64,000 bases of DNA, from NCBI GenBank assembly GCA_003220495.1, contig QHSP01000015.1, positions 124,001 through 188,000 of the forward strand. The letters run 5' to 3'. The notes below the pieces were generated by a model. It was not told the DNA's origin. It was given only the letters and a program-made list of their open reading frames with translations, and made no database searches. A program made the position numbers and the translations under genes. Origin of the DNA: Candidatus Rokuibacteriota bacterium. GTDB taxonomy: Bacteria > Methylomirabilota > Methylomirabilia > Rokubacteriales > CSP1-6. Positions within the stretch are counted from its first letter, which is position 1. The number at the start of each line of letters is the position of its first letter. Below, one piece after another: positions 40,496-58,738 of this stretch.

Positions 40496-40999
40496 ATGAA
40501 GTGCCCGTTTTGCGGTCACACGGAGGATCGGGTCGTCGACTCGCGGGTGGGCCGGGACGGGGAGTTCATCCGGCGCCGCCGCGAGTGCCTCAAGTGCCAC
40601 CGCCGGTACACGACGTACGAGTACATCGAGGACGTGCTGCCGCACGTGGTCAAGCGCGACGGACGCCGCGAGCCCTTCGACCGCCAGAAGCTCCGCGGTT
40701 CCATCTTGAAGTCGTGCGAGAAGCGATCGGTCGGTGTGCAGGCCGTCGACGACGTCGTCGTCGAGATCGAGGCCCAGCTGCACGAGCGCGCCGAGAAGGA
40801 GATCAGCAGCGAGGAGCTCGGCCGGGTGGTCATGGATCATCTCCAGCGCCTGGACCCCGTCGCCTACGTCCGGTTCGCCTCGGTCTATCGGCAGTTCAAG
40901 GATATCGGCCAGTTCGTCGAAGAGGTGAAGGGCCTCCAGCGAGACGACAAGACGAAGGCGGCTCCGGCCAAGCCCCGTCCCCTCGCCAAGACCAAGTGA
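40496..40999 (+). CDS. nrdR: Transcriptional repressor NrdR
   Basis: ATP/dATP-sensing repressor of ribonucleotide reductase genes. An N-terminal zinc ribbon uses Cys3 and Cys6 (MKCPFCGH) and Cys31 and Cys34 (ECLKCHRRYTTYEY). The ATP-cone domain spans about 46-140 (VKRDGRREPFDRQKL). At 167 residues it has a Lys/Pro-rich tail. A strong GGGGGGA ribosome site lies upstream. No ribonucleotide reductase gene is in the window. Confidence 0.95.
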   Translation: MKCPFCGHTEDRVVDSRVGRDGEFIRRRRECLKCHRRYTTYEYIEDVLPHVVKRDGRREPFDRQKLRGSILKSCEKRSVGVQAVDDVVVEIEAQLHERAEKEISSEELGRVVMDHLQRLDPVAYVRFASVYRQFKDIGQFVEEVKGLQRDDKTKAAPAKPRPLAKTK

Positions 41000-41010
41000 C
41001 CGGGCGGGTG

Positions 41011-41053
41011 AAAATAGCGCGGCCCTGCCGATGGAGTCGGATCGGCAGGGCCG
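41011..41053 (-). terminator. Terminator of the minus-strand micro-gene, convergent with nrdR
   Basis: A 13-bp perfect stem, 41020-41032 with 41041-41053 (core GGCCCTGCCGAT), around an eight-base loop. On the minus strand it is followed by GCGCTATTTT. On the plus strand the T-rich run comes only 20 bases later, inside the micro-ORF, so it may also weakly stop nrdR transcription. It lies 16 bases past the micro-ORF stop. Confidence 0.65.
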
Positions 41054-41068
41054 AGCGCCGCGTGGGCC

Positions 41069-41107
41069 CTACTTCTTTTTCTTCTTGGTCGCCTTCTTTT
41101 TCGCCAC
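41069..41107 (-). CDS. 12-residue lysine-rich micro-ORF
   Basis: Minus-strand GTG (41105-41107) to TAG (41069-41071), encoding MAKKKATKKKKK: nine lysines in twelve residues. Seven bases before the GTG is GGGAGG, within GGAGGTGA, which matches the full 16S anti-Shine-Dalgarno. A sigma70-type promoter (41157-41185) precedes it and a terminator follows it, making a complete gene of about 140 bases. An in-frame ATG at 41146, about four bases after the predicted mRNA start, could add 13 residues. The peptide would be expected to bind nucleic acid or acidic surfaces. Alternatively the transcript is mainly an sRNA. Function unknown. Confidence 0.6.
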   Translation of the reverse strand: MAKKKATKKKKK

Positions 41108-41156
41108 CGCCTCACCTCCCTTCGCCGAGACGCTCGAACGGCGCATCTGCTCGGCA

Positions 41157-41185
41157 ATGCTAGTGAGGTGGGAAAAATCTGTCAA
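41157..41185 (-). promoter_or_regulatory. Promoter of the lysine-rich micro-gene
   Basis: On the minus strand, perfect TTGACA (41180-41185), exactly 17 bp, then TAGCAT (41157-41162). Predicted mRNA start near 41150. A second TTGACT lies 13 bases further upstream. It is divergent from the radical SAM promoter at 41252-41280. Confidence 0.75.
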
Positions 41186-41251
41186 GGCCAAAAGTCAATA
41201 CCTGGGGGTCGGGAGGCATTTCACACCCCAAGATGTAGGGTCGTACGTAAA

Positions 41252-41280
41252 TTGACTTCCTCACGGCCGCGATGTAGCGT
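41252..41280 (+). promoter_or_regulatory. Promoter of the radical SAM gene
   Basis: TTGACT (41252-41257), 17 bp, TAGCGT (41275-41280). Predicted start near 41287 gives a leader of about 56 bases that includes GAGGAG for the ATG at 41343. Its -10 resembles that of the divergent micro-gene promoter. Confidence 0.7.
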
Positions 41281-41342
41281 GGGCGCACGGTCGAGCGCTG
41301 CCCATCACCAATAACTACCCGCTCTTGAGGAGATCTCCGTCG

Positions 41343-43160
41343 ATGAGACGCATGCTCAAGAAGCTTGTGTTCGTCGAACCGAAGTCGACCCATCTGCACA
41401 TCTACAGCCGGGTCTGCATTCCGCGGATCGGATCGGTCTTGCTCGCCACCATCATGCGGGCCAAGGGCTACGACGTTCGCGTCTATATCGAGGACATCCA
41501 GGCGCCGGACATGAACGAAGTCCTCTCGGCCGACCTGGTCGCCATCTCGGCCATCACCTCGACGGCGCCGCAGTCCTACCGGCTCGCCGACCAGGTCCGC
41601 GCCGCCGGCGGGATCGCCGTGCTCGGCGGCACGCACGTGAGCTTCTTGCCCGAGGAAGGGCTCGAGCACGCGGACTTCGTGGTGCGCGGCGAGGGTGAGT
41701 TCGCGTTCCAGGAGCTGGTCGACGCCATCCAGGCCGGCCACGGGCTCGAGCAGATCAAGAACCTCTCGTACATCGTGGACGGACAGGTGGTCAATCTCCC
41801 GGAGCGTCCGAAGATCCCGAACCTCGACGTGAACCCGATCCCGGACTACAAGCTCATCACGGGCTGGAAGCCTGGCGGGGTCATCTCGGTCGCGACGTCG
41901 CGCGGTTGCCCGTTCTCCTGCACCTTCTGCTCGGTGCCGGGCATGTACGGCCACGCCTTCCGCACCCACTCGGTCGAGCGCGTGCTGCAAGAGCTCGAGA
42001 GCCACCGCGGCAACGCGTACACCTTCTTCGCGGACGACATCTTCACCGCGAACAAGAAGCGCTGCAAAGAGCTCCTGCGCGGGATGATCGAGCGCAACCT
42101 CATTCCCGATTGGGGCGCCCAGGTCCGGACAGAAACCGTCGACGATCCCGAGCTCCTCGAGCTCATGCAAGCGGCAAACTGCTTCAACGTCTACGTCGGC
42201 TTCGAGTCGATCAATCCCCGGACGCTCAAGCTCTTCCAGAAGAAGCAGGACGTGGCGAAGATCGAGCGCTCGATCGAGCGGTTCCACGCCCACAAGATCC
42301 GGATCCACGGCATGTTCGTGGTCGGCTCCGACGAGGACGACGTCGAGACGATCGACGCCACCGCCGAGTTCGCGCTCAAGAACGACATCGACTCGATCCA
42401 GTTCATGATCCTCACGCCGATTCCGGGCTCACCCGACTGGGAGCAGCTCTACGACCGCGGCGGCAAGTACGTGATCAGCAAGAACTGGCAGTTTTACGAC
42501 GGGCACCACGTCGTGCACCAGCCGCGGCGCATGAGCCCCTACGAGCTGCAGAAGGGCGCGCTCGACGCCATGGCCAAGTTCTACTCCTGGCGCGGCATCG
42601 CCAAGAAGCTCATGAAGGGCGACAAGTACTACGCGGTGATCCGCTATTTCGGCAAGCGAATGGTCCGCGACTGGTGGAAGGACGACGAGAATCGCCAGCA
42701 CGTCGAGTGGCTCAAGGCTCAGCTCTACTCGGACGTGAAAGAGCTCGGACATCACGCGCTCCAGCGGGTGGGGCTGCCGGCGATCCTGCTCCAAGATTCG
42801 GTGGGACGCCTCCTCCAGCGCTTCCTGGGCGAGCTCGGCGTGACGGTCGTGCCGCTGGCCGAAGCGGCCGCCGAGGGCGCCGCGCGCGCCAAGGAGACCG
42901 TCGACTGCCTGATCACGCCGATCGTCAAGCGCGCCGTCAAGGAGCGCGAGGAGTTCTACGCGAGCCTCGCGAGCGTGAACATGAGGCTCCAGAGCCAGTG
43001 GGACAAGCTGCCCCACGTTAGCTTCCCGCTGCTCGACGGTCAGGGGCCGGTGTTCGAGCCCTTCGCGAAGATCGGGCTCCTCTTCACGAAGAACCTCGAT
43101 CGCATCCGCGACGCCTACAAGAGCGCCGGGGTCGCCGAAGGCCTCTGGGAAGCCGCATAA
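41343..43160 (+). CDS. B12-binding domain radical SAM protein
   Basis: A 605-residue enzyme. Residues about 20-150 form a cobalamin-binding-like domain (IPRIGSVLLATIMRAKGYDV; VVRGEGEFAFQELVDAIQAG). The radical SAM domain carries SRGCPFSCTFCSV with Cys189, Cys193 and Cys196 for the [4Fe-4S] cluster. The C-terminal 250 residues after a DUF4070-like segment are family-specific and predicted helical. Related class B enzymes methylate or rearrange unreactive carbon (for example HpnR/HpnP hopanoid methylases), but the product here cannot be named. It is monocistronic, with its own promoter, and ends at a large inverted repeat. Confidence 0.85.
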   Translation: MRRMLKKLVFVEPKSTHLHIYSRVCIPRIGSVLLATIMRAKGYDVRVYIEDIQAPDMNEVLSADLVAISAITSTAPQSYRLADQVRAAGGIAVLGGTHVSFLPEEGLEHADFVVRGEGEFAFQELVDAIQAGHGLEQIKNLSYIVDGQVVNLPERPKIPNLDVNPIPDYKLITGWKPGGVISVATSRGCPFSCTFCSVPGMYGHAFRTHSVERVLQELESHRGNAYTFFADDIFTANKKRCKELLRGMIERNLIPDWGAQVRTETVDDPELLELMQAANCFNVYVGFESINPRTLKLFQKKQDVAKIERSIERFHAHKIRIHGMFVVGSDEDDVETIDATAEFALKNDIDSIQFMILTPIPGSPDWEQLYDRGGKYVISKNWQFYDGHHVVHQPRRMSPYELQKGALDAMAKFYSWRGIAKKLMKGDKYYAVIRYFGKRMVRDWWKDDENRQHVEWLKAQLYSDVKELGHHALQRVGLPAILLQDSVGRLLQRFLGELGVTVVPLAEAAAEGAARAKETVDCLITPIVKRAVKEREEFYASLASVNMRLQSQWDKLPHVSFPLLDGQGPVFEPFAKIGLLFTKNLDRIRDAYKSAGVAEGLWEAA

Positions 43161-58001: not shown

Positions 58002-58738
58002 GCGGCAAGATCGCCGTCGTCACGGGCACCAGCGTCGGGCTGGGGCGCGAGATCGCCAAGGTGCTGGCCGCGGAGGGCGCGCGAACGCTCGTGGTCGCCC
58101 GGCGCGCCAATCTCCTGACGACGCTCCAGGACGAGATCGAGCGGGCGGGCGGTGCGCGGCCGGTGGCGCTGCCGCTCGACCTGCACACGCCGGATGCTCC
58201 CGCGCGGATCCGCGACGCCGCGCTCTCGGCCTACGGGCGCGTGGATATCCTGATCAACAACGCCGGCGGCTCGCGGCCGATCCCGTGGGACTCGCCGGAC
58301 GCGGCGTGGGACGAATCGTTCTCGATCAACTTCACCGCGGTGCGCCGGACGACCCAGGCACTCCTCCCGGGCATGATCGAGCGGCGCTGGGGCCGGATCC
58401 TCTGCGTCACCGGCAGCGCCGAGCCATCGGGTGTCAACGCCGCCGTGGCCGCGAAGGCGGGCGTCCACGCCTGGGCGAAGGGGCTCTCGCGCGAGATCGG
58501 GCGGAACGGGATCACGATCAATTGCCTGTCGCCCGGGCGCGTCCACAGCGAGCAGATCGACCAGCGCCTGCATCCAACGCCGGAGAGCCAGGCCGAGTTC
58601 GCGCGCAACATCCCGCTCGGCTATTTCGGCGACCCGTCCGACGTGGCGTTCCTGGCGGCGTTCCTCTGCTCGCCCAAGGCGCGCTACATCACGGGCGAGC
58701 GCATCCACGTCGACGGCGGGCTGCACCGCGCGGTCTGA
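57986..58738 (+). CDS. SDR-family oxidoreductase lacking the catalytic Tyr
   Basis: A 250-residue short-chain dehydrogenase-fold protein. The nucleotide site is VVTGTSVGLGREIAKVLAAE (about 11-30) and the NNAG motif reads ILINNAGGSRP. At the active site the classical YxxxK reads A153-V-A-A-K157, so the Tyr is Ala and only the Lys remains, within VNAAVAAKAGVHAWAKGLSR. An SDR subgroup with NAAxAAKA at this point is familiar to me, so this may be a lineage trait rather than a defect. Reaction unknown. Confidence 0.85.
   Translation: MDLELSGKIAVVTGTSVGLGREIAKVLAAEGARTLVVARRANLLTTLQDEIERAGGARPVALPLDLHTPDAPARIRDAALSAYGRVDILINNAGGSRPIPWDSPDAAWDESFSINFTAVRRTTQALLPGMIERRWGRILCVTGSAEPSGVNAAVAAKAGVHAWAKGLSREIGRNGITINCLSPGRVHSEQIDQRLHPTPESQAEFARNIPLGYFGDPSDVAFLAAFLCSPKARYITGERIHVDGGLHRAV

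Follow-up and report, generated by a model that had tools for sequence, protein, structure and literature searches.

NrdR is usually regarded as a repressor that acts on ribonucleotide reductase genes. The dual-function small RNAs, of which SgrS/SgrT is an example, and the histone H1-like lysine-rich proteins (Hc1/HC2, AlgP) are the other described systems closest to the locus analyzed here. The locus resembles the NrdR regulon in that paired palindromic boxes, 31–33 bp apart and with the motif of the family's nrdJ genes, are present and nrdR adjoins. It differs in that the target is a 12-codon polylysine ORF and not a reductase, and in that the boxes are wholly upstream of the -35, whereas reductase boxes overlap the core promoter. 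In common with SgrS/SgrT there is a short transcript (predicted here), a strong Shine-Dalgarno (SD) sequence, a small ORF and a structured 3' end, but the peptide is much shorter. The Lys-Ala low-complexity composition is that of the H1-like proteins; however, the micropeptide has just 10–13 residues and is without H1-like length. No publication in the literature searched brings together NrdR, Rokubacteria and lysine-rich micropeptides, and a search for the peptide MAKKKA likewise gave nothing relevant.

The putative gene is on the minus strand of the window, i.e., the whole 64-kb stretch of DNA that was analyzed, to which the positions refer. Its promoter has a -35 hexamer TTGACA (positions 41180–41185) and a -10 hexamer TAGCAT (positions 41157–41162) separated by 17 nt, with 10 of 12 positions matching the consensus. 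A leader of 49 nt upstream of the micro-ORF is followed by the SD sequence GGAGGTGA (positions 41112–41119), a GTG start codon at 41107, eleven codons and a TAG stop codon (positions 41071–41069). The micro-ORF (positions 41069–41107) encodes the peptide MAKKKATKKKKK. An earlier note on this DNA had given the promoter and the order of SD, GTG, eleven codons and TAG exactly to the base. It had also pointed to an in-frame ATG at 41146 and an alternative 25-residue form; the ATG is present, but the longer form is ruled out, as the orthologues have no conserved in-frame start at the equivalent position. Downstream of the stop codon, a spacer (positions 41054–41068) leads to a 13-bp hairpin, CGGCCCTGCCGAT-loop-ATCGGCAGGGCCG (positions 41020–41053), with a loop of 8 nt and the tail CGCTATTTTC, which is terminator-like here. 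Within positions 40900–41400 the micro-ORF promoter is the only promoter-like site (0.1 expected from shuffles) and the micro-ORF hairpin the only terminator-like site (0.4 expected from shuffles).

The convergent neighbor is nrdR (positions 40496–40999, plus strand), which encodes a Zn-ribbon and an ATP-cone (PF22811 and PF03477) and lies inside the retrieved flanking sequence at 27 of the 38 single-copy loci. No same-strand gene is present downstream of the micro-ORF in the window. On the other side is a divergent B12-binding radical-SAM gene (positions 41349–43157, plus strand). The promoter of this gene, TTGACT-N17-TAGCGT (positions 41252–41280, plus strand), shares the box region and mirrors the micro-ORF promoter, with a common box pair between the two.

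Of 39 relatives, 26 are matched by a 301-bp query. A search for the pattern of SD, start codon and KKKA gave three matches in the whole 6-Mb genome; the reversed control gave none, and neither did 60 simulated 64-kb sequences. The pattern is present in 55 of 57 family genomes, in all 35 family genomes of good quality, and in 84 of 95 genomes of the phylum. A comparison of eight orthologues from the genus shows 100% identity in the -35 and 91% in the SD region. Codon positions 1 and 2 are 97.7% identical and position 3 is 81% identical, and the leader between the -10 and the SD is just 32–37% identical. Pairwise codon differences among these orthologues are synonymous in 67 cases and nonsynonymous in 14, where half of the latter are exchanges of GTG and ATG start codons and the rest represent one K-to-G change in one genome.

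The 38 single-copy loci come from 19 genera. The hexamer TTGACA is present in 37 of them, and the -10 hexamer of the orthologues is TAGCAT in 21/36 and TAGAGT in 7/36. The peptides consist of K3–5, one or two small residues, and K4–6; the small residues are A, T, S and also G, and R appears now and then as a charge-preserving replacement of K. The Lys codons, 90% of which are AAG, show AAA/AAG swaps between single-unit relatives, and the Ala codons likewise vary synonymously. Just two genomes were seen in which the ORF is lost or broken. One (L339) has no ORF but retains the boxes, promoter and SD, along with a hairpin that is slightly altered (one substitution); in the other (L340), with its ORF truncated into the hairpin, the -35, -10 and SD have changed as well.

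As judged from these alignments, selection maintains the unit as a whole; it acts on the peptide in view of the conservation of codon positions 1 and 2, the synonymous excess and the constrained forms of the peptide. There is strong support for a predicted stand-alone micropeptide gene of Rokubacteria (Methylomirabilota) that belongs to a family of 10–13-residue polylysine peptides. The earlier note had proposed a genuine micropeptide gene, for which the synonymous Lys codons and the conserved SD, promoter and hairpin now provide strong support. Its view that such a unit is unlikely to be accidental is borne out by the recurrence of the pattern in the family genomes and its absence from the reversed control. 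It had further suggested an alignment of related loci; this displays the synonymous Lys-codon variation, with SD, promoter and hairpin kept, but gives no signal for compensatory changes in the stem.

In published NrdR sites, two 16-bp boxes flank a spacer of 15–16 bp, i.e., 31–32 bp between centers, and binding is good with spacers of 14–17 bp (PMC12051234). Given this site geometry, the family's own nrdJ (ribonucleotide reductase) promoters were therefore examined. They were located with PF02867, and a matrix was built from the nrdJ boxes alone. The nrdJ box pairs are 31–32 bp apart and in the source genome are CCCCTAGATTCAGCGT / CCACAAGATGTAGTGA. In the window, the nrdJ-trained matrix reveals a distal NrdR-type box ACCCTACATCTTGGGG (positions 41226–41241) and a proximal box CCCCCAGGTATTGACT (positions 41193–41208), which is degenerate here, both in the minus-strand reading. 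The two box centers are separated by 33 bp, and the proximal center is at 15 bp from the -35. No other pair in the 64-kb window scores as high (19.7 vs. 12.3 for the next). With the same matrix, the 38 micro-ORF upstream regions have a mean best pair score of 20.4, compared with -4.8 ± 4.6 in shuffles, and the box pair is found at a shuffle p ≤ 0.05 in 37 of 38 single-unit loci, all 37 of them at p ≤ 0.03. Box centers are 31–33 bp apart in 36/36 scored loci, and the distance from the proximal box center to the -35 is exactly 15 bp in 32 of the 36 and 14–16 bp in all. In a genome-wide search of 12 genomes with the R1 profile, every match with E < 1e-3 is an nrdJ or a single-unit locus; this profile was trained partly on micro-ORF boxes, and its E-values are not independent, unlike the nrdJ-only matrix. 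The window's own proximal box is weak by the R1 profile (E = 0.09).

Binding of NrdR to the box pair, and thereby control of the micro-ORF gene, is predicted with strong support. The paired NrdR-type boxes and the multi-copy family described below are absent from the earlier note; the box pair is the main new point. The arrangement at nrdJ is different: the first box overlaps the core promoter, with its center 15 bp downstream of where the -35 begins. The micro-ORF boxes are instead upstream of the -35, so that the control may have the opposite sign. From this upstream position NrdR could activate the gene, or could repress it by occupying the AT-rich stretch that precedes the -35.

In most relatives a small hairpin, GCGCC-n4-GGCGC, is found 3' of the stop codon (it is weak in the window) and is followed by the conserved stem CGGCCCTGTCGG-loop-CCGGCAGGGCCG, the core of which is invariant in 23 aligned sequences. 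A covariance model of this hairpin has one match per genome in 43 of 95 genomes; in two of the 43 the model also matches the opposite strand at the same site. A pattern search shows that the hairpin is unique in the source genome. The 13-bp hairpin described in the earlier note stands, but the TATTTT that was placed after it is not a conserved U-tract. Most relatives have CCATCT, and not a clean U-tract, right after the hairpin, so that a terminator role is likely but not certain. Covariation in the stem gave no signal either way and is uninformative because the stem hardly varies. Single-sequence folding was no better than that of shuffles (z -1.25), and the window has no Rfam match above the gathering score. 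The hairpin may have an RNA role, as in a dual-function RNA.

The reading we consider probable is a stand-alone, selected micropeptide gene with predicted NrdR control, whose product may be a nucleic-acid-binding polycation. Put forward more tentatively is a dual-function NrdR-controlled gene, where peptide and invariant hairpin RNA would both serve in a dNTP-linked response and NrdR would possibly act as an activator, with nrdJ repressed. In another reading the RNA is the effector, i.e., an NrdR-controlled small RNA in which the CGGCCCTGTCGG...CCGGCAGGGCCG hairpin does the work and the ORF is secondary. The invariance of the hairpin sequence and not of the pairing alone, its single-copy presence in 43 genomes, usually without a clean U-tract, and the retention of boxes, promoter, SD and hairpin in the ORF-less L339 are consistent with this. 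However, conservation at codon positions 1 and 2 far exceeds that at position 3 and in the leader, the L339 hairpin has gained its substitution where the ORF is gone, the -35, -10 and SD of L340 have changed along with its ORF, and a stem nearly without variation offers no informative covariation. An RNA effector with a secondary ORF is considered unlikely. The box pair might instead regulate the divergent B12-dependent radical-SAM gene, with the micro-ORF promoter a constitutive bystander, as the boxes are between two divergent promoters in the window and in 27/38 loci. Yet eight genomes without a detectable radical-SAM orthologue (search at E ≤ 1e-60, without an internal positive control) keep the boxes, with an equal 15-bp spacing to the micro-ORF -35. 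Because of these genomes the boxes cannot simply be assigned to the divergent gene, and the bystander role appears distinctly improbable.

It is highly improbable that the ORF is a Lys-codon leader peptide, where termination at the hairpin is set by lysyl-tRNA charging. In the window's genus the convergent nrdR is next and there is nothing downstream to attenuate, but ORF and hairpin are kept; a conserved alternative pairing with the Lys codons was not seen in an unsystematic look. The run of Lys codons followed by hairpins would be in keeping with attenuation, as would the EamA transporter found downstream on the same strand in some genera, but attenuation was rejected since a co-directional downstream gene is absent in the window and its genus. 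The earlier note had also considered a translation-stalling polylysine ORF. Iterated AAA makes ribosomes pause and slide (PMC4363877); stalling is unlikely because the Lys codons here are 90% AAG, and the micro-ORF is not followed by a gene on its own strand in the window. In favor of a chance, functionless combination of promoter, SD, Lys codons and hairpin, purine-rich stretches can look like Lys codons, but this reading is refuted by conservation, which is region-specific and covers 55/57 family genomes vs. 0 in the reversed control. The probability of a chance assembly is negligible.

The family has two kinds of copies. The single unit, usually beside nrdR, has its own promoter and hairpin; the operon copy is usually a tandem pair. 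The second locus is between an AbiEi-like gene (AbiEi_2 domain, PF09952) and a convergent rpmB. In the source genome the tandem pair is at about 58376–58490 of G000:C68 (L031) and encodes the peptides MKKKATKKKKGK and MKKKAKKKKK; it is conserved family-wide. A single-copy unit on a 3.5-kb contig assigned to a different family, f9 (L066, G075:C169), has the ORF and hairpin but is without boxes and without TTGACA, and is possibly misbinned or transferred. In Methylomirabilia outside Rokubacteria (L068–L087), Lys-rich micro-ORFs are downstream of both an ArsR/HTH_5-type gene and another small gene that has no Pfam match, a context that is different but conserved within the group.

Outside Methylomirabilota, similar SD-preceded peptides are found in at least Eisenbacteria, Planctomycetes, Nitrospirae and others, a distribution to be read as a minimum. 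The peptides of these other phyla pass gradually into longer H1-like repeats of the KKKAAKKK type. When analyzed with Pfam HC2 (PF07382), the longer ones reach no more than 13.9 bits vs. a cut-off of 40; the 12-mer is too short for this profile scan. No neighbor gene is common across the phyla, and every clade has its own context. In four planctomycete-type loci (L131, L158, L188 and L242) a Lys-rich ORF of 18–39 aa is upstream of a lysA-like decarboxylase gene, on the same strand and a few hundred bases away, which could be a lysine leader peptide or a coincidence. No convincing NrdR box pair was found at tandem or other-phylum copies, the best being L227 with a score of 10.9 and one good box. 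Common descent with the other-phylum peptides is unproven because these are below the HC2 cut-off, have different neighbors and have no convincing box pairs. The absence of convincing boxes at the tandem and other-phylum copies also implies that NrdR control does not belong to the peptide as such.

The peptide leaves no room for a fold, so that a nucleic-acid-binding polycation is the simplest reading of its function. In the proposed mechanism NrdR, a nucleotide-sensing repressor, would bind the two boxes that closely precede the -35, and the micro-ORF gene and nrdJ would be controlled together by the dATP/ATP state. The peptide, with a charge of about +8 (+7 to +9), would bind nucleic acid (DNA, RNA or ribosome) and may represent a cheap polycation that is deployed when dNTP supply changes. 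The invariant 3' hairpin would serve to stabilize the transcript or to end it, and may have an RNA activity of its own. As the promoter has paired control sites like those of nrdJ, it is suggested that the peptide or RNA is tied to DNA-precursor supply. If true, this would be a second conserved NrdR target, one that encodes just a 10–13-residue polycation and has a different box geometry. Such a target would tie dNTP sensing to something beyond reductase supply, and could open activation by NrdR to direct testing. The locus also shows that genes of about 12 codons, below the usual annotation cut-offs, can persist across genera with full regulatory anatomy.
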